A DNA stretch of 64,000 nucleotides. Origin: Fimbriimonadaceae bacterium (GTDB taxonomy: Bacteria; Armatimonadota; Fimbriimonadia; Fimbriimonadales; Fimbriimonadaceae). The notes under the pieces are model-generated. The model saw only the letters and a list, made by a program, of their open reading frames with translations. It ran no database searches and was not told where the DNA came from. Both the position numbers and the translations under genes were made by a program. Below, piece after piece: positions 33,425 to 42,154 of the stretch (positions are counted from its first letter, which is position 1; every line of letters begins with the position of its first letter). Location of the stretch: assembly GCA_019638775.1 (NCBI GenBank), contig JAHBTD010000001.1:372001-436000 (forward strand), written 5' to 3'.

Positions 33425-34477
33425 TTAGGCAGGAAAAGCCCGCAGGAAGAGGTCAGGGCCTATCCGCTCTATAGATTCGATTTTGAGGTTCGGCACGTCA
33501 GCAAGCTGTTTCGTGATCGAACCTTCGATCCAAGCGGGACCGCTTCCAAAGACCTTTGGAGCAATAAAAAGGGCTATCTCATCAAAGAGTTTGGCCTGAA
33601 CGAACGAAGCGATTGTCTTCGCGCCACCTTCAACCAAGATCGAAGTTACACCCAATCCCCACAGATGCCGCAACACCTTGGTAAGGTCAAATTGTCCACT
33701 CACCGCTTCAAAACCGATTTGGCGCTCGTTTGCGGGCTCGCCTGCTACCACCCAGCATACTTTTGCGTCAGCAGCAGAAAAGACGCTCTCCGTGCCGTTT
33801 AGAGCCCTTTCTGGGTCTAACACGATCCGTGCAGGCTGGTTCACAACACCTTCTATCCGAGCCGTGAGTTTGGGATTGTCGGCAAGCACGGTGCCACTGC
33901 CGACTAAAACAGCTCCCATCTCTGCGCGAAGCCGGTGCGCGGCAGCCCTCGACTCCTCAGATGTGATCCACTGGCTCTCGCCACTTGGAAGGGCGATCCG
34001 TCCATCGAGGGTCATGGCCGCTTTGAGACAAACATATGGTCGCTGAAGTCGCATTGCTGTCAACCACACACGGTTTGCTTCAGCAGCTTCCATTTGCAAT
34101 AGGCCGACCGACGTTTCGATTCCAGCTTCACGTAAGCGCGCAGATCCTCCCTGCGCCTTTGGGTTGGGGTCTGGACATGCAAAAGAGACCCGTTTGACGC
34201 CTGCTGAGATGAGAGCTTCGGAACATGGTCCCGTACGGCCCACGTGATTGCAGGGTTCCAGCGTGACATAAGCTTCTGCGCCATGGGCTCGACCACCTGC
34301 TTGCTGAAGCGCGACAGCTTCGGCATGCGGGCCGCCAGCGAAATCGTGCCATCCCTCGCCTACGCATTCGCCCTGCCGAACGATCACACAGCCGACGTGG
34401 GGATTTGGCGCGGGAAATCCTCGGCGGGAGAGTTCAACCGCGCGAGCCATCCAGAATTCAGGCGTCTTTTCGCTCAT
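33425..34477 (-). CDS. ribD: Bifunctional riboflavin biosynthesis deaminase/reductase
   Basis: RibD carries out the second and third steps of riboflavin synthesis. The 350-residue product has the N-terminal deaminase domain with zinc ligands His51 (GPHAEAVAL), Cys76 and Cys85 (LEPCNHVGRTGPC) and the catalytic Glu53, then the C-terminal reductase domain (LKAAMTLDGRIAL, then MGAVLVGSGTVLADNPKLTAR, then ILVEGGAKTIASFV). Both halves look complete. It is the last gene of a seven-gene overlapping run and overlaps the preceding small membrane protein gene by 20 bp. No other rib genes are near. Confidence 0.96.
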   Translation of the reverse strand: MSEKTPEFWMARAVELSRRGFPAPNPHVGCVIVRQGECVGEGWHDFAGGPHAEAVALQQAGGRAHGAEAYVTLEPCNHVGRTGPCSEALISAGVKRVSFACPDPNPKAQGGSARLREAGIETSVGLLQMEAAEANRVWLTAMRLQRPYVCLKAAMTLDGRIALPSGESQWITSEESRAAAHRLRAEMGAVLVGSGTVLADNPKLTARIEGVVNQPARIVLDPERALNGTESVFSAADAKVCWVVAGEPANERQIGFEAVSGQFDLTKVLRHLWGLGVTSILVEGGAKTIASFVQAKLFDEIALFIAPKVFGSGPAWIEGSITKQLADVPNLKIESIERIGPDLFLRAFPA

Positions 34478-34748
34478 GGTCCTTGAGCGTCCCTTCGATC
34501 AGCTCTTTCAGATTCTCCTTGGCCTCTTCGCGAAACTGTGCGCGCTGGCGCCGCAAGAGCCAAAGTGACAAGGCGCAGGTGAGAACAAACACAAACAGAA
34601 CGGCGAGAAGATAGTAACCGTATCTCAGGGCGTAGCGCTTGAGTTCATCGCCGGTTCCTTCTGGTTTCGCACCCACAACCCATGGCCAGAGCGCAAGCAT
34701 CAGTAGCCCTGTGACAAAGCTGATGGTCGTTGCGATCTTCAGCCACAT
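34458..34748 (-). CDS. Small membrane protein with two transmembrane helices
   Basis: A 96-residue product: helix 1 (IATTISFVTGLLMLALWPWVVG), a short outside loop, helix 2 (YYLLAVLFVFVLTCALSLWLL), then a basic-acidic cytoplasmic helix (RRQRAQFREEAKENLKELIEG) that could form a coiled coil. The function is unknown. It overlaps rpe by 10 bp and ribD by 20 bp, so translation is coupled to both. Confidence 0.75.
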   Translation of the reverse strand: MWLKIATTISFVTGLLMLALWPWVVGAKPEGTGDELKRYALRYGYYLLAVLFVFVLTCALSLWLLRRQRAQFREEAKENLKELIEGTLKDHERKDA

Positions 34749-35386
34749 GCCCGGCGCAACTCCTCCAACCCCTGTGCATAGCTGGATTGCTTCACGAGAT
34801 AGCTTCCTGAGACGAACACATTTGCGCCTGCAATCCGCGCCGCCCCAATCGTCGAAGGGTCGATCCCACCGTCGACCTCAATATCGAGCTCTGGATAAGC
34901 CTTGTGGATGGCGGTCACCTTCTCCAACGCCTTACCGATAAATTTTTGTCCTCCCCAACCTGGATTGACAGTCATGACCAGAGCAAGGTCGATTTCGCCG
35001 AGCACTTCTTCAATCGCATCAACAGGTGTTGCAGGATTGATCGCGATACCGGGCCGTATCCCCATGTTTCGCAATTGCCCAATCAGGCGATGTGCATGGA
35101 CTGTGGCTTCGGCATGGAAGATGATCACATCGGCCCCGGCATCAGCGAAGGCTTGGAAATGGGCCTCAGGGGTCTGTGTCATGAGATGGGCTTCAAAACA
35201 GAGGTCACCGTAGTTGCGCAGATTCTCGACCATTTGCGCGCCAAAGGTAATCGGGGGCACGAACTGACCGTCCATGACATCAAAGTGGATGCGGTCGGTG
35301 CCCGCGTCGATCATCGCCCTTACGGCCTCGCCTACACGAGAAAAGTCGCACGAGAGAATCGATGGAGCAATTTCAACTCTATTCAT
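34739..35386 (-). CDS. rpe: Ribulose-phosphate 3-epimerase
   Basis: The TIM-barrel enzyme interconverts ribulose-5-phosphate and xylulose-5-phosphate. The 215-residue product shows IAPSILSCDFSRV, the metal-binding HFDVMDGQFVPPITFG, EAHLMTQTPE, LVMTVNPGWGGQKFI and EVDGGIDPST. All are canonical. Its start codon overlaps the stop of the PASTA pseudokinase gene as ATGA. Coupling of rpe with a PASTA-kinase-type gene is often seen in Firmicutes (prkC-rsgA-rpe), which supports a conserved linkage. Confidence 0.97.
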   Translation of the reverse strand: MNRVEIAPSILSCDFSRVGEAVRAMIDAGTDRIHFDVMDGQFVPPITFGAQMVENLRNYGDLCFEAHLMTQTPEAHFQAFADAGADVIIFHAEATVHAHRLIGQLRNMGIRPGIAINPATPVDAIEEVLGEIDLALVMTVNPGWGGQKFIGKALEKVTAIHKAYPELDIEVDGGIDPSTIGAARIAGANVFVSGSYLVKQSSYAQGLEELRRACG

Positions 35387-37218
35387 TGACCGCCCCCTCC
35401 TGCCGTGTCCGCATTTCTATCACGCCCCGGCGGTGAAACCTGCTCTTCGTCCGTGTCAGGTGTCAGGCTTTCCGCATCGGCTTTCTTCGTGACCTGCTTG
35501 ACTAGTTCACCATCGTAGAAGATTCTGAAAACCGCCTCGGCGCCGTAGCCTTCTGCGGTGATCTCCACGAGATTATCTGGATCGTGAAAATCTTCGTGGA
35601 CCGTTCTAGTTCCCCGGGCATCGGTCATATCAACCCGCAATCCGACTGATGCGGTGAGACCGGTGAGTCGTATCCGGATCGTGTAGAGGTACTTGGTTTC
35701 GTCTGCCCGATCTGAACGCCCGCTCGTCTGGCTGGAGACTCTGAACCGCACCTTTGTGCCTCTCTCCACCCTCTTTCGACTCTCTGGAACATGCGACACG
35801 ACCAAGCCAGGTTCGAGTTGGCGATCACGCACCTCGTCAACGCGATCATCGCCAACCAAGCCAATCTCTTGCAACGTAATCTTTGCCTTGTCCACACTGA
35901 GCCCGCGAAGATCGGGGACCTCGACAAATCGACTGCCATCGCTAACAACCACTCCGATGACGCTGCCGACGTAGGAATCGTTGCTTGGTGGAGGGTCCAT
36001 CTCGATGACCGTATTGGTCGCAAACTCCTCACTGGTTTCTCTGCGCATGATGCGCATCTTGAGGTCAAGCTGCTTCAGGCGAGACTCGGCTTCTGTAACC
36101 GTCAGGCGGCGAATATCGGGAACCTTGACGATCTTGGGTCGGGTCATGTTGAACATGACGAACCCCCCGATGGTGAAGATCACGAGGGCAGCGACGAAGA
36201 TCATGACCATTTTCAACCAAGAAGGGACCCCATCGTCGTAGTCTTCATCGTCGACTTTGGTAGGTTTGGGCTTTGCTTTGGTCTCTTCCTTGATCGCTGA
36301 CATTTTGGGAGCAACGCCCGCTGGCTCCTTGGTGAAACCAGCGGCTCCGCTTCGAGCGGGGGCGACACTTGCGGGAGCCGCAGCTGACCTTCCAAATCGA
36401 AGGGCGTCTTGAACGAATCTGAGCTCGCTCAGGAGTTCGCCTGCGTCGTTGTATCTTTCTTTGGGGTCTTTGCTGAGTGTTTTCGAGACGATCTCATTGA
36501 GGGCATTGGGGACTGCGGCGTTGAAATTCTTTACAAATGGCGGCGTGTCCGTGGCATGCTTGATCGCCATTGCAACGGGTTGATCGGCGACAAACGGCTT
36601 TCTGCCAGTAAGCAGCTCAAAAAGGATGACACCCATTCCATACACATCGGAAGGCGCCGTTGGCATATCGCCCTTGCTCACTTCGGGGGCGAGGTAGGGC
36701 GCCATGTTTGGCAGAACGACCGAACCCGCTGTCATGCTCGCGGAATAGCTCGGCCAAAACGCACTGAGCTTAATCTTTGCGTTCCCTTCTGGATCGACGA
36801 TCACATTATGCGAGCCAATGTCTCCGTGAGTGAGGCCGACTCTGTGGAGGGCGGTCAGACCTTCGCAAATTGAAATGGCGATGGATAGCGAGACGGGAGC
36901 AGAGAATGGCGCGAGCCGTTTAATTCGGTCGGAAAGCAAAGTGCCCTTGCTGAGCTCGCAGACGAGAAACGTATGTTTCTCGTCTCGGTCAATTTCAAGC
37001 ACACGCTCAAGGGATGGGCTCTGAACATCTTTCAGACGCGCGATGATTTCGCCGAGAGCCGTGACAAACTTGGTTTCCGAGGCATAGGGTTGTTTCAGGA
37101 TGCGGATACATACATCGCGCGCAGAAACTTTGTCTCTTGCCGCATAAACGTCGAAAAGCGGTTCATCGTGCAGATTCTCAAGGAGCTCGTACCGAAGACG
37201 CAGGATGTTTCCTATCAC
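35383..37218 (-). CDS. Membrane PASTA-domain protein with degenerate kinase domain (pseudokinase)
   Basis: A 611-residue protein with the PknB/PrkC layout: a cytoplasmic kinase-like domain (residues 9-275), an Ala/Lys-rich linker, one membrane helix (MVMIFVAALVIFTIGGFVMF), two PASTA domains (VPDIRRLTVTEAESRLKQ... and VPDLRGLSVDKAKITLQE...) and a beta-rich extracellular end. The kinase core is damaged. The glycine loop reads LHDEPLFDVY, the VAIK lysine is Arg39, HRDxKxxN reads HGDIGSHN and DFG is replaced by Ser152-Ala-Phe. The C-lobe (YLAPEVSKGD, SDVYGMGVILFELLTGRKPF) is intact. It is therefore probably a sensor or scaffold. The GTG start overlaps the previous stop as GTGA with GGGAG upstream. 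Confidence 0.9.
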   Translation of the reverse strand: MIGNILRLRYELLENLHDEPLFDVYAARDKVSARDVCIRILKQPYASETKFVTALGEIIARLKDVQSPSLERVLEIDRDEKHTFLVCELSKGTLLSDRIKRLAPFSAPVSLSIAISICEGLTALHRVGLTHGDIGSHNVIVDPEGNAKIKLSAFWPSYSASMTAGSVVLPNMAPYLAPEVSKGDMPTAPSDVYGMGVILFELLTGRKPFVADQPVAMAIKHATDTPPFVKNFNAAVPNALNEIVSKTLSKDPKERYNDAGELLSELRFVQDALRFGRSAAAPASVAPARSGAAGFTKEPAGVAPKMSAIKEETKAKPKPTKVDDEDYDDGVPSWLKMVMIFVAALVIFTIGGFVMFNMTRPKIVKVPDIRRLTVTEAESRLKQLDLKMRIMRRETSEEFATNTVIEMDPPPSNDSYVGSVIGVVVSDGSRFVEVPDLRGLSVDKAKITLQEIGLVGDDRVDEVRDRQLEPGLVVSHVPESRKRVERGTKVRFRVSSQTSGRSDRADETKYLYTIRIRLTGLTASVGLRVDMTDARGTRTVHEDFHDPDNLVEITAEGYGAEAVFRIFYDGELVKQVTKKADAESLTPDTDEEQVSPPGRDRNADTAGGGGQ

Positions 37219-37418
37219 GACGACTCCCGATCTTTGACAAATGACAGAACAATGGCTACGAGCAGTAAAGCCAACGAAAGTCGCCAAACCGGCTGTTGGT
37301 CAACCCGGGCAGCATATGTCGCGGCCTGGCCCGTGAAGTAGGCGTATTGGCTAGCGAAGTAGCCACCTACAAGGCCAAGCACGGCAAACACGGATAGGGC
37401 AAACCGTAAGGCTTTCAT
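37215..37418 (-). CDS. Small membrane protein with two hydrophobic segments
   Basis: A 67-residue product: helix 1 (LRFALSVFAVLGLVGGYFAS), a short polar loop with a Tyr-rich stretch, and helix 2 (WRLSLALLLVAIVLSFV) ending in KDRESS. The function is unknown. Its ATG overlaps the aroB stop (ATGA) and its own stop overlaps the pseudokinase start (GTGA), so it lies inside a translationally coupled run. Confidence 0.75.
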   Translation of the reverse strand: MKALRFALSVFAVLGLVGGYFASQYAYFTGQAATYAARVDQQPVWRLSLALLLVAIVLSFVKDRESS

Positions 37419-38443
37419 GCCGATAACAACGCCTCCCGCACGGCATCGGCGGGTACGTTCTCAACGAGTTTACACGTTCCCAAGCCTTCGAGGAGGCTAA
37501 AGCTAAGACCCTTGCCGGTGGCTTTTTTATCGCGGCCCATAAACTCAAGAAGCTCGTCGGCGCGGGTGAGATCATCGGAAGAGGTGGGGAGGTTGGACAA
37601 CTTTAAGACATCAACAATCTCGCGTGTCGTGCCTGCTTCCGTGATGCCGATAATCTCGCCGAGCTTAGCCTCGACGGCCATGCCCACCGCCACAGCTTCG
37701 CCATGAAGCAGCCCTTCATAGTTTTGGATACCTTCCAGCGCGTGACCCACGGTGTGACCGAAGTTAAGGATGGCGCGTCTGCCGCTAAGATCGAACTCGT
37801 CAGCAGCGACGACGCTCTCTTTGAGCTTAATACAGCGTAAGGCAATCTGACTGAAATCTCGTTTCGTATCGTCCGTTTCCCGCTTCAACTCGTCTACGAA
37901 CTCAGAATCCATGATGAAGCCGTACTTCCAGACTTCTGCCAGGCCATTTCTAAGCTGTCGTATGTCAAGGGTCGTCAGAGTTTCGGCGGCGATGAGAATC
38001 TTCTTCGGATGATAGAACGAGCCCAGCAGATTCTTGCCTTGCGCAAGGTCGATGCCCACTTTTCCGCCCACCGAGGAATCTACCTGTGCAAGGAGTGTGG
38101 TGGGGAATTGGATGAGGGGTACTCCGCGCATATAAGTCGCGGCGACGAATCCAGCAAGATCACCGATTACTCCTCCGCCAAGTGCGACCAGAGTCGTCGA
38201 TCTTTTAACCCCTTCGTTTGCGACCCGGTCTATTGTGCGCTCGAAGTACTCGAACGATTTTGTTTTCTCTCCGGGCGGGAGCGTTAATATTGACCAGTCG
38301 GAGAAGGCGTGACCCCAGTGCTGAAAGACGTTTTCGTCTGTGATGATCAAGGAATCCGTCGGTATCTCGCGGATGAGTTCCGCAACGCCGCCGAAGGTGA
38401 CCACGGAGCCCCCGCAACCAAGGTCATGCCTAAGCATGTTCAA
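37415..38443 (-). CDS. aroB: 3-dehydroquinate synthase
   Basis: AroB converts DAHP to 3-dehydroquinate, step two of the shikimate pathway. The 342-residue product shows the NAD-binding GGGVIGDLAGFVAATYMRG, FPTTLLAQVDSSVGGKVGIDL, the KNLLGSFYHPK loop and the metal-binding histidines in ILNFGHTVGHALE with the later LLHGEAVAVGM. It overlaps aroK by 14 bp (or 8 bp if ATG 38437 is used). The arrangement aroK-aroB is common. Confidence 0.96.
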   Translation of the reverse strand: MNMLRHDLGCGGSVVTFGGVAELIREIPTDSLIITDENVFQHWGHAFSDWSILTLPPGEKTKSFEYFERTIDRVANEGVKRSTTLVALGGGVIGDLAGFVAATYMRGVPLIQFPTTLLAQVDSSVGGKVGIDLAQGKNLLGSFYHPKKILIAAETLTTLDIRQLRNGLAEVWKYGFIMDSEFVDELKRETDDTKRDFSQIALRCIKLKESVVAADEFDLSGRRAILNFGHTVGHALEGIQNYEGLLHGEAVAVGMAVEAKLGEIIGITEAGTTREIVDVLKLSNLPTSSDDLTRADELLEFMGRDKKATGKGLSFSLLEGLGTCKLVENVPADAVREALLSA

Positions 38444-38960
38444 GCCTCTGTTCGTACTCCTCTATCAAGAGCTTAATTTTAGCAGCGACCTCAAAGACGG
38501 GTGAGTCTTCGGTGTCGAAGACAATGTCGGCCTTTTCGTAGAGGTGGGCGCGTTGATCGATGAGGTCGCTAAGCTTCCCTTCCCAGTCTTCGACCATGAG
38601 TAATGGTCGCTTGCGTTTACTTTGTTCGAGACGGTTCGTAAGTCTGCTAAGGTCGGCGCGGAGGTAGATGACAGTGCCAAGACGTCGCATCTCGTCCCAG
38701 TTCGCATCTCGCATCACAATTCCCCCACCGGTAGCGAGGACACAGTCCTGCGGAGTCAGGGATTTGAGGACGCTCGTCTCGTGTCCGCGGAAGGCCTCCT
38801 CACCGTAGACCTTGAAAATTTGGGAAACGGTTCTTCCAAAGCGTCTTTCCAGCAACATGTCGGTATCTTCAAACGGGCGGCCCGATATCTCAGCAAGTTG
38901 CCTGCCTACGGAGCTCTTTCCGCTTCCCATCATGCCGATTAGTATCCAACACCGCGCCAT
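38430..38960 (-). CDS. aroK: Shikimate kinase
   Basis: AroK phosphorylates shikimate at the 3-hydroxyl. The 176-residue product has the P-loop GMMGSGKSS at residues 9-17, the shikimate-binding DTDMLLERRFGRTVSQIF and FRGHETSVL, and the lid GGGIVMRDANW. The ATG at 38960 gives the normal short N-terminus; no Shine-Dalgarno is visible, and the start lies only 10 nt after the T-run of the pilQ terminator. Transcription therefore comes either from read-through or from a promoter hidden in the terminator region. It is the first gene of the overlapping aroK-ribD run. Confidence 0.93.
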   Translation of the reverse strand: MARCWILIGMMGSGKSSVGRQLAEISGRPFEDTDMLLERRFGRTVSQIFKVYGEEAFRGHETSVLKSLTPQDCVLATGGGIVMRDANWDEMRRLGTVIYLRADLSRLTNRLEQSKRKRPLLMVEDWEGKLSDLIDQRAHLYEKADIVFDTEDSPVFEVAAKIKLLIEEYEQRLEHA

Positions 38961-38970
38961 GGCTTTATGA

Positions 38971-39003
38971 AAGAAAAGCGGTGGATCTAGAGGACCCACC
39001 GCT
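38971..39003 (-). terminator. Rho-independent terminator after pilQ
   Basis: On the minus strand, AGCGGTGG and CCACCGCT form an 8-bp stem followed by TTTTCTTT. It begins 24 nt after the pilQ stop (39028) and marks the end of the pilMNOPQ unit. Confidence 0.8.
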
Positions 39004-39027: not shown

Positions 39028-40668
39028 CTACGGGAACCCGGGACCGAAGTCGTCCTCAAGAACAGTCGGAGTCACAAAGATGATGAGCTCGGTATGGTTC
39101 TTGTCCTGAGACTTTGACCGGAAGAACTGCCCGACGATCGGAAGGTCAGCAAGGATCGGGAATCGGGATTCTGAACCCGTATCCGACTTACGTGTCAGAC
39201 CACCCAATGCAATCGTCTCGCCGCTGCGAACGCGCGCTACAACAGCGATGGTTTGCGATAGGATGTCTGGAACTTCCTGACCGTCTGGGCCTCGGCGAAT
39301 CTGGCCGAAGTCCTGAACCGGTACGTTGATGAAACAAGTGACGGTGCCGTCTTCATTGATACGCGGCGCAACTGCCAGACCCGTAGTAATCGTGAACTGG
39401 ACTAGCTGAGGAGCGTTGATGACCTGGCCGTTACCGACGCTGATCACCTGGTTGATGAAGAGGCTCGTCTGAACCTGCTGCTGGATGGAGGCGGGCTGGT
39501 TGTTGAGCGTTCGGATAACCGGAGCTTGGACAACCTTACCTGTGCCTGTTTGCAACAGCGCTCGCATTCGCGAAGTGATGTTGCCCGTAGCATAGTTCAA
39601 GAAGATCGGATCGCCTGAGCGAGCGAATGTTCCCGGGCGGTTACCCGTGATCATCGTTCCGCGCTCGTAGAGCCAGTCAAAGCCGAGCGATTTTGCAAAG
39701 CTTGAGCTGGTCGTCACGAACTCGACCTTAATCTGCACCTGTTTTGGGGCTACGTCGAACAGGTTAATGTTGCGTTGGAGGTCAGCAATATCCTCTTCCG
39801 AACCACGGACGATAATCGAGTTATCGGTCGGGTCGTAGCTGATAAAGTCGATCGATCCACCAACGAGGCCTTGTCCAGGTGTTAGCTGAGCGCCTCCGCC
39901 CTGGCCACCACCGCCGAAGCCACCTTGACCGCCGCCGCCGAAGCCGCCGCCACCTTGACCACCGCCGCCGAAGCCGCCGCCGCCTTGGCCGCCACCGCCA
40001 CCGCCGCGTCCGCCAACCTGGTTAGCCGACTCACCGGGGAGTCGAATGTCGCCGCCGCTTTCCGCTGCTCCAATCTTATCGATGGGAACGGGCGTATAGT
40101 TGCCGCTGCTGTTTGCCAGGATTGGCATCTTGCCGTAGAACTTGGCGCCAAACGGGTCCGTAACGCGGAGGAACTCTTGGATCTTTTCAAATCCAGCATT
40201 CGGGTCCACGCCAGGGCTACCGCCGAGCTTCATGTAGATATCAAGTGCGTCAGCCTTTTGAAGTTTGATCTTCTTAAGCACGCGCTTGATCGGCTTAGCC
40301 GGGGCTGCTTCAACAGGTCCGACGTCCGTCTTGCCCACATTGTGGCCAATGATATACACGCCATTTGCATCACGGCGGAAGCTTGCGCCCGCTGCATTGC
40401 AAATATAGCGAATAGCATCGTCAGCCGAGATGTTTTTCAGCTGCAGAGTGACCGGATGGAACTCCTTTTCGGTCGGTTCGAGAACGAACGTTAGACCTGT
40501 GAGCTGAGTCAGCGTCTGGATAACCGCCGTCATATTGGCATCTTCCAGTCGCAGATTCGAAATCCGAATCTCCTCCGGAGCCTTTTGGGCTACGGCGCTC
40601 ATCGGAGCGCAAACGCCAACCGCTAAAAGCGCTCCGGTGAGCATACATCGTACGAACTTATTACGCAT
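39028..40668 (-). CDS. pilQ: Type IV pilus / type II secretion secretin (PilQ-like)
   Basis: The outer-membrane pore through which the pilus passes. The 546-residue product has a signal peptide (MRNKFVRCMLTGALLAVGVCAPMSAVAQ), an STN-type N-terminal domain (LRLEDANMTAVIQTLTQLTGLTF), an N1-type domain (NSIIVRGSEEDIADLQRNI) and the secretin domain (VQIKVEFVTTSS, then GLTRKSDTGSESRFPILADLPIVGQFF, then ELIIFVTP). Between residues about 217 and 260 there is an insert made almost wholly of Gly with Gln and Phe, longer than any linker expected there. It has a good Shine-Dalgarno (AAGGAGAA) and is the last gene of the pil unit. Confidence 0.95.
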   Translation of the reverse strand: MRNKFVRCMLTGALLAVGVCAPMSAVAQKAPEEIRISNLRLEDANMTAVIQTLTQLTGLTFVLEPTEKEFHPVTLQLKNISADDAIRYICNAAGASFRRDANGVYIIGHNVGKTDVGPVEAAPAKPIKRVLKKIKLQKADALDIYMKLGGSPGVDPNAGFEKIQEFLRVTDPFGAKFYGKMPILANSSGNYTPVPIDKIGAAESGGDIRLPGESANQVGGRGGGGGGQGGGGFGGGGQGGGGFGGGGQGGFGGGGQGGGAQLTPGQGLVGGSIDFISYDPTDNSIIVRGSEEDIADLQRNINLFDVAPKQVQIKVEFVTTSSSFAKSLGFDWLYERGTMITGNRPGTFARSGDPIFLNYATGNITSRMRALLQTGTGKVVQAPVIRTLNNQPASIQQQVQTSLFINQVISVGNGQVINAPQLVQFTITTGLAVAPRINEDGTVTCFINVPVQDFGQIRRGPDGQEVPDILSQTIAVVARVRSGETIALGGLTRKSDTGSESRFPILADLPIVGQFFRSKSQDKNHTELIIFVTPTVLEDDFGPGFP

Positions 40669-40704
40669 CGTAATTCTCCTTACCCTCCTTGAATTCAGAC
40701 AGGC

Positions 40705-41388
40705 TTACCGGCCGATGCCACCACCGCCGCCGCCACCAAAGCCGCCGCCACCGCCGCCGAAGCCGCCGCCGCCACCAAGGCCGCCGCCGCCACCGCCGAA
40801 GCCGCCGCCACCGCCAAGACCGCCGCCGCCGCCGCCGAAGCCGCCGCCACCGCCGCCAAAGCCGCCGCCACCGCCACCACCACCGATGTTCTGGGTGTTA
40901 AAGATGGTGCTCATCTCGGGCCAGGTCGAGGTTGATTGCGAACCCGAAAGCATACGCATGATAAACAGCGGGTCTGCGCTTCGGATTTTGAGTCGCCGAA
41001 TAGGAAGCTTAGCGCTTGCTACGGGACCCGGGTCGGTGCCGCCGCCGGGGGTGATATTGTCCGGTGGGCGCTTGATGATCTGGTAGATGCCGCCTTCGAC
41101 GCGGTACGTTGCATCAACCTGCTTCAAGATAGCCTGAAGCGCGGTCTCGAATGTAACGTTCCTAACGCTGAGCGTAATCGTTCCTTGAACATCCGGTGCA
41201 ATGCTGTAGGAAACGCCAACGTTCTTGAAAAGCGCCTTAAGAGCTTCTCGAACGTCTGCCTCCTGCAGTTCAAGTGACGGAATGATTGTTTGGCTAGGAT
41301 CGCTCTGGGCATGAGCATTGGCGATACCGCCAGCCCAAATCCCGATTGCGAGGATAGCCGCAATAATCGTTTTTTGCGCGTTCTTCAT
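40705..41388 (-). CDS. Secreted STN-domain protein with polyglycine tail (separate secretin N-domain)
   Basis: A 227-residue product from the ATG at 41388 (Shine-Dalgarno CGGAGA). A signal peptide (MKNAQKTIIAAILAIGIWAGGIANAHA) is followed by an STN/secretin-type domain (LELQEADVREALKALFKNVGVSYSI, then TLSVRNVTFETALQAILKQV, then YRVEGGIYQIIKRP). After about residue 167 it consists of about 55 residues of near-pure Gly with single Phe or Leu every five to eight residues. It has no secretin pore domain. Its place between pilP and pilQ suggests it forms part of, or docks to, the PilQ periplasmic vestibule. The tail gene segment is a GC-rich repeat prone to slippage. Confidence 0.88.
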   Translation of the reverse strand: MKNAQKTIIAAILAIGIWAGGIANAHAQSDPSQTIIPSLELQEADVREALKALFKNVGVSYSIAPDVQGTITLSVRNVTFETALQAILKQVDATYRVEGGIYQIIKRPPDNITPGGGTDPGPVASAKLPIRRLKIRSADPLFIMRMLSGSQSTSTWPEMSTIFNTQNIGGGGGGGGFGGGGGGFGGGGGGLGGGGGFGGGGGGLGGGGGFGGGGGGFGGGGGGGIGR

Positions 41389-41449
41389 AAAGATTCTCCG
41401 TACCTTATGATGGATGAACCTGTCGGTCGTTTCATCAAATCTACTATTC

Positions 41450-42154
41450 TTAGCCGCCACTGGTTCCTAGTCCAGGGCCACCTTGTCGTCCGCCACGGCC
41501 TCCACGTCCGCCTGCGTTTCCACCGGCGTTGCCGCCAGAGTTTCTACCGCCAGCGCCGGGAGGTGCGCTTTCGAGGTTGACAATGATATCGTTCGGCTTC
41601 ACATTACCACCCCGTCGTAGGATGGCTTTGTTCTCGTCGATGGAGATAACGGTCCACGGGCTGTTGGGAATCTGCATTCCGGGGTGAATTTGAACTGCCC
41701 GTCCGTCCTCCATGATAATGATCGCCGTAACTGTGTCCCCAATAATCACGCCAGCGAGCCTGCGATAAGGCTGAGGCTGCGGGCGCTCTTGGACTGTCAC
41801 TTCGGGCTCTGGCTCAAATCGCTGATCCCAGCCGAAGTCGCTGGTTAGCCTTTCGGTAAGCTGTGCGTAATCGTAAGCTACTTCGTTTGGCTTGAGCGCA
41901 AACGGATCTCGTCGCGAGCCACCGAAGTTTCTGTTGCTCCACAGCATCGCATAGCGCTGCTCGTCGGGCTTCACTTCAAAGCCAACGCCAGCGTCAGCAT
42001 TGGGCTTCTCGACGGGTCTCGTGCCTGCATTGCCTGAAGCTCCAGGCATCGTGACACCGGAGCCTGCGGCTCCGCTACCGTCTCCGCACCCGGCCAAGAC
42101 CAGGGCAAGAGCCGCCATCGTTAAAATCGTTCTCACGTCTTTCATATCGGTCAT
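41450..42154 (-). CDS. pilP: PilP-like pilus assembly lipoprotein
   Basis: The 234-residue product has a lipoprotein signal with lipobox (LALVLAGCGDG), then a disordered Gly/Pro/Ala stretch, then the PilP-type core RRDPFALKPNEV and a beta-domain YRRLAGVIIGDTVTAIIIMEDGRAVQIHPGMQI with WTVISIDENKAILRR (the 'G.vi..g..a..v....g......G..i' pattern of PilP/GspC-type HR domains). The last 45 residues are Gly/Asn/Arg-rich. PilP links the PilNO inner-membrane complex to PilQ. The ATG at 42154 has AAAGGTG upstream; 42145 is an alternative. Confidence 0.82.
   Translation of the reverse strand: MTDMKDVRTILTMAALALVLAGCGDGSGAAGSGVTMPGASGNAGTRPVEKPNADAGVGFEVKPDEQRYAMLWSNRNFGGSRRDPFALKPNEVAYDYAQLTERLTSDFGWDQRFEPEPEVTVQERPQPQPYRRLAGVIIGDTVTAIIIMEDGRAVQIHPGMQIPNSPWTVISIDENKAILRRGGNVKPNDIIVNLESAPPGAGGRNSGGNAGGNAGGRGGRGGRQGGPGLGTSGG

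Follow-up and report, generated by a model that had tools for sequence, protein, structure and literature searches.

PASTA kinases are regulators of peptidoglycan synthesis, and the gene lying ahead of rpe in the 64,000-nucleotide stretch of the Fimbriimonadaceae contig analyzed here (the window) raises the question of what such a receptor does once most of its catalytic residues are gone. The open reading frame runs from a GTG at 37218 to a TGA at 35383 on the minus strand and encodes 611 amino acids, in which Pfam recognizes a Pkinase domain at residues 24 to 257 (95.6 bits; cut-off, 31.7 bits) and two PASTA domains (67.8 bits). An AlphaFold2 model built with 23 orthologs (mean pLDDT = 84) has a confident kinase fold (residues ~1 to 280), a disordered linker, a helix at residues 333 to 358, two PASTA folds, and a C-terminal beta domain. 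The nearest solved folds of the modeled kinase-like domain are those of PknA and PknB (Z scores of 30 to 36), the closest being PknA structure 4ow8 (Z = 35.7; rmsd = 1.6 over 268 residues), and Foldseek also matched the model to the whole Staphylococcus aureus PrkC ectodomain (3py9). By sequence, the closest solved kinases are StkP, PknB, and S. aureus PknB, and when named genomes were scanned with this protein, only distant PknB loci of Actinobacteria matched. Judged by sequence and model, the protein is an intact single-pass membrane protein comprising a kinase-like domain, a helix, two PASTA repeats, and a C-terminal Ig-like domain. One ortholog (L059) is 1219 residues long, some 600 of which form charged, coiled-coil-like repeats between the kinase-like domain and the membrane helix.

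We use the term pseudokinase in its sequence sense, for a protein with a kinase fold that is missing at least one of the VAIK Lys, the HRD Asp, and the DFG Asp. With the fold retained according to the structure match and both the Lys and the DFG Asp missing, the window protein is by this definition a PASTA pseudokinase, as the initial annotation had proposed. Alignment also bears out that annotation's reading of a P-loop devoid of glycine, of Arg in place of the β3 Lys, and of HGD in place of HRD with Asn138 kept. The DFG Asp is indeed lost, and the residue at its position is Leu151, not Ser152 as first assigned. The more general claim that the residues for ATP binding and catalysis are lost holds for the P-loop glycines, the Lys, and the DFG Asp (the αC Glu is absent as well, with Ile58 at its position), but of the set Lys, αC Glu, HRD Asp, Asn, and DFG Asp the protein retains two members, the catalytic Asp133 and the metal-binding Asn138. 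A relocated Lys of the WNK type was sought by eye in the family alignment, and no conserved Lys was found in the β2/P-loop region. A helix in the activation segment (residues 162 to 175), which is ordered in the model, was considered as a mark of a pseudokinase and dropped; this helix also appears in the model of a control protein with the full set of five catalytic residues (L114), and it is therefore no evidence for or against catalysis.

Features of the pseudokinase gene and its neighbors (window coordinates)
Feature	Position	Strand	Basis or remark
aroK, shikimate kinase-like	38430..38999	-	Profile search; no model over its cut-off
aroB, 3-dehydroquinate synthase	37415..38443	-	Profile search
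Small membrane protein, 67 aa, two hydrophobic segments	37215..37418	-	Unlisted ORF; 4-bp overlaps with aroB and pseudokinase
PASTA pseudokinase gene, 611 aa, GTG start	35383..37218	-	GTG overlaps stop of upstream ORF by 4 bp
Kinase-like domain, residues 8-276	36391..37197	-	Pfam Pkinase; structure match to PknA/PknB
Former glycine loop LHDEPLFDVY, residues 16-25, without glycine	37144..37173	-	Sequence and alignment
Arg39 at β3 (VAIK) Lys position	37102..37104	-	Alignment; Arg in 39/43 f1 and f5 loci
HGD (His131-Gly132-Asp133) where HRD is expected	36820..36828	-	Alignment; Asp133 kept, Asn138 kept further on
Leu151-Ser152-Ala153 where DFG is expected	36760..36768	-	Alignment
Trp155, derived	36754..36756	-	Alignment; 43/43 f1 and f5 loci
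Transmembrane helix, residues 333-358	36145..36222	-	AlphaFold2 model helix
PASTA 1, residues 364-427	35938..36129	-	Pfam
PASTA 2, residues 431-497	35728..35928	-	Pfam and AlphaFold2 model
C-terminal all-beta (Ig-like) domain, residues 509-580	35479..35694	-	Model strands; Foldseek match to 3py9
rpe, ribulose-phosphate 3-epimerase	34739..35386	-	Profile search; ATG overlaps pseudokinase stop (ATGA)
Membrane protein, 96 aa, between rpe and ribD	34458..34748	-	In most family loci; no curated family
ribD	33425..34477	-	Profile search

The losses are shared far beyond this one genome. Orthologs were recovered from nearly all of 61 related genomes, mostly as one long frame; 60 gave a match, and G049 has only a distant kinase. 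Within the family of the window protein, the DFG Asp and the αC Glu are missing from all 36 loci and the β3 Lys from 33, so that the possibility that this copy alone is mutated, raised in the initial annotation, does not hold; because loss of the same kind is found in all 36 family loci, neither chance nor a sequencing fault can account for it. Across the order, none of the 58 loci keeps all five residues, and the Asp at the HRD position survives in 55. The pattern differs among families: in f5 the DFG Asp is still there, with the Lys replaced by Arg and the Asn mostly by His; in f2 the Lys survives and the DFG Asp does not; and f3 no longer has the HRD Asp. The replacement residues are themselves fixed or nearly so in the sister families f1 and f5 (Gly132 and Trp155 in 43/43 loci; Arg39 in 39/43), and Trp155 sits two places past the former DFG motif, where other families mostly have small residues. 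Mean pairwise identity is highest in the kinase C-lobe (47%), compared with 32 to 38% in the PASTA and Ig-like domains and 25% in the linker, a pattern pointing to selection on the fold. Selection on a noncatalytic role had been suggested at the outset, and it is the fixation of Trp155 and Arg39 alongside the losses that argues for it. Taken at the sequence level, the new residues and the conserved C-lobe fit a retained protein-binding domain better than they fit decay.

Comparison across the phylum indicates how these losses came about. At the locus between aroB and rpe, HGD replaces HRD almost without exception throughout the phylum, and the HGD clade stands apart (support, 99/96) from the HRD-type PASTA kinases, in which all motifs are intact. 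Outside the order, 12 of 52 same-locus members keep all five catalytic residues (families f6, f7, f10, f16, f20, f22, f39, and f40), most of them with the Lys of the catalytic loop replaced by Arg (HGDLRPxN), and their sequences suggest that they may be active kinases. These twelve branch outside a 25-row clade (support, 98/94) that holds the order. On a larger tree, computed with the motif columns removed, the Lys, the Glu, and the DFG Asp each require at least 8 state changes, the HRD Asp at least 6, and the Asn at least 18, indicating that loss was stepwise and repeated. The comparison with orthologs that had been suggested for dating the losses shows them to be old within the HGD clade. 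The upstream flanks of six HRD-type loci were scanned; an FtsW/RodA-family gene is present in four, and a PBP transpeptidase gene was also seen in two of those four. One PASTA kinase of the HRD clade (L097) reads HGDVKPQN with its other motifs kept; the change from Arg to Gly arose there a second time.

The initial annotation had regarded the gene as a PrkC ortholog that lost its activity. Clade-wide degeneration agrees with that view in part, but the loss is old and stepwise within a phylum-wide HGD clade rather than recent. The Firmicutes PrkC locus has the order prpC-prkC-rsgA-rpe, and adjacency to rpe is the one pointer that hints at shared descent with it, the tree having been computed without Firmicutes sequences. 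Profile scores are graded. The best NCBIfam model of the window protein is NF033483 (Stk1/PknB family PASTA Ser/Thr kinase, an equivalog model), against which it scores 295 bits, below the curated cut-off of 450 bits, while its domain order of kinase, membrane helix, and PASTA is that of the Stk1/PknB family. One HRD-type protein of the phylum scores 525 bits, one actinobacterial kinase scores 678 bits, and the HGD members with all five residues score 385 to 460 bits, so that scores fall smoothly from canonical kinases through these HGD members to this order.

The gene block aroK-aroB-[small membrane ORF]-PK-rpe-ribD, with PK the kinase or pseudokinase gene, recurs across the phylum, with rpe found beside 103 and aroB beside 81 of 110 locus-clade sequences within the fetched stretches. 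Three 4-bp overlaps link aroB, the 67-amino-acid ORF, the pseudokinase gene, and rpe. Of the 43 f1 and f5 loci, 40 have an equivalent of the small ORF in this position, 36 of them with an unchanged offset, and its identities at codon positions 1, 2, and 3 are 0.44, 0.53, and 0.32. With its protein pattern conserved and its third codon position varying most, this ORF is very probably a real gene. Its product has no Pfam or NCBIfam family above cut-off; Pfam matches to CLC and DUF6520 were all below cut-off and were taken as matches of composition. Many further families of the phylum also have small hydrophobic ORFs ahead of the corresponding gene. Position and conservation make this translationally coupled membrane protein, overlooked in the initial annotation, the best candidate for a partner of the pseudokinase. 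On the far side of the block, adjoining aroK, the window encodes a secretin-like protein and an upstream neighbor with long glycine-rich runs (39028 to 41460, minus strand).

We therefore favor, with moderate confidence, a reading in which the window protein is a membrane-spanning PASTA pseudokinase that acts by docking or switching without transferring phosphate, in complex with the small protein and by stepwise descent from an HGD kinase. The outer PASTA and Ig-like part would sense or bind cell wall material as in PknB and PrkC, and the inner kinase-like domain, presumably no longer able to transfer phosphate, could offer partner proteins a docking platform or act on them as a conformational switch. 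The overlapping genes imply that the pseudokinase is made together with the two-helix membrane protein encoded upstream, and the two may well form a complex. The ancestor would have been an HGD-type PASTA kinase at the same locus that shed its catalytic residues step by step, while the HRD-type PASTA kinase carried by other families of the phylum was presumably not kept in this lineage. As far as sequence can tell, the protein probably signals through physical contact with its partners, holding them or touching them, and not through phosphorylation.

Whether a second, active PASTA kinase exists elsewhere in the genome was an early question, and the answer is that there is none: the Pfam search of the source genome returned a single PASTA gene, that of the window. 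Among the 88 genomes of the order that are at least 90% complete, 86 have PASTA matches, two per genome and three in G009 and G022, while G253 and G049 have none; the two repeats belong to one protein in nearly all cases, giving nearly always exactly one PASTA gene per genome. The canonical HRD-type PASTA kinase that occurs elsewhere in the phylum is absent from this order. The source genome has two other Pfam kinases, both with intact Lys, HRD, and DFG and neither with PASTA. One of them, with a TPR-like tail, is L001 (G000:C3:271277-271975); besides the pseudokinase it is the kinase conserved in the order, and members of its type are present in the order's other genomes; its P-loop, IARSNDIVYEA, carries no glycine.

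These remaining kinases allow for a pseudokinase that is a regulatory subunit, one that binds, is phosphorylated by, or allosterically switches an active kinase, so that sensing is split from phosphotransfer. Inactive and active kinases sharing a fold often pair, and the best candidate here would be the L001-type kinase, with an FHA-PP2C pair reading and erasing the signal. The genes for an FHA protein and a PP2C phosphatase do adjoin each other with no kinase beside them (L179, 4139 to 5880), as if the cluster had lost one, and Ser161 of the activation segment is conserved in 38 of 43 f1 and f5 loci. However, Thr163 is poorly conserved (19/34), and the L001-type gene is unlinked to the pseudokinase locus. 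We consider such a division of labor unlikely, if worth keeping in view.

The retention of Asp133 and Asn138 counts against our preferred reading, as these residues could support some remaining activity or a different chemistry. Proteins labeled pseudokinases from their sequences have in some cases proved active, and Asp133 and Asn138 are kept in 34 and 26 of 36 family loci, respectively; together with Arg39, they might support weak phosphotransfer or another nucleotide transfer. A parallel is offered by the DLHK proteins, which keep the HRD Asp despite degraded ATP- and metal-binding motifs and whose activity was left open in a 2025 review (PMC12599244). Against this, the window protein is without glycine loop, Lys, αC Glu, and DFG Asp, and the HRD Asp itself has been lost from some members at the locus (HGE, HGH, FGR, HGG, and HGA) whose genes are still intact, making an atypical enzyme distinctly improbable. 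A decaying pseudogene or local error, which the disappearance of many motifs at once might suggest, is refuted by intact orthologs throughout the family and order and by the conservation of the operon, its overlaps, and the new residues, and we give it practically no weight.

A docking or switching pseudokinase would resemble known systems in part. PknB, PrkC, StkP, and Stk1 share with the window protein a kinase domain, one membrane helix, PASTA repeats, and a C-terminal Ig-like domain, whereas the window protein has lost ATP- and metal-binding residues, has HGD for HRD, and has only two PASTA repeats. The pseudokinase domain of Mycobacterium tuberculosis MviN (ActPs3 family) cannot bind ATP and is tied to cell wall synthesis (PMC12599244), a tie that the domains of the window protein also suggest; in contrast, MviN is an actinobacterial membrane protein without PASTA. 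EssB/YukC of type VII secretion is a membrane-anchored pseudokinase working through protein contacts (PMC12599244) but has another architecture, belongs to another system, and lacks PASTA. As MviN and EssB indicate, a bacterial pseudokinase can play an important structural part (PMC12599244). Cells with StkP-K42M, a kinase-dead protein from which the β3 Lys was removed, show a specific, DivIVA-dependent elongation phenotype (PMC3983041); that protein is a laboratory mutant, whereas the Lys loss described here is natural and fixed in the lineage. The text of the 2025 review of bacterial pseudokinases, which describes the families ActPs1-3, GLW, CP1, DYD, and DLHK, names neither a PASTA pseudokinase family nor an armatimonad (PMC12599244). 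Our literature search of open-license papers found no other PASTA pseudokinase family and no paper on Armatimonadetes Ser/Thr kinases.

We see about an even chance that these proteins constitute a new pseudokinase family through which the order carries out PASTA-based wall sensing without phosphotransfer, by way of a two-protein membrane complex, with a single syntenic locus preserving the series from kinase to scaffold. Such a family would join a still short list of pseudokinases from bacteria, and the locus points to a small membrane partner possibly missed by standard annotation. How much of the work of PASTA kinases needs phosphotransfer is an open question, and here the only PASTA receptor of a lineage has lost catalytic residues while keeping the receptor and the fold. 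As the intermediate stages survive in relatives at this locus, that question may be approached by comparison and by domain swaps.
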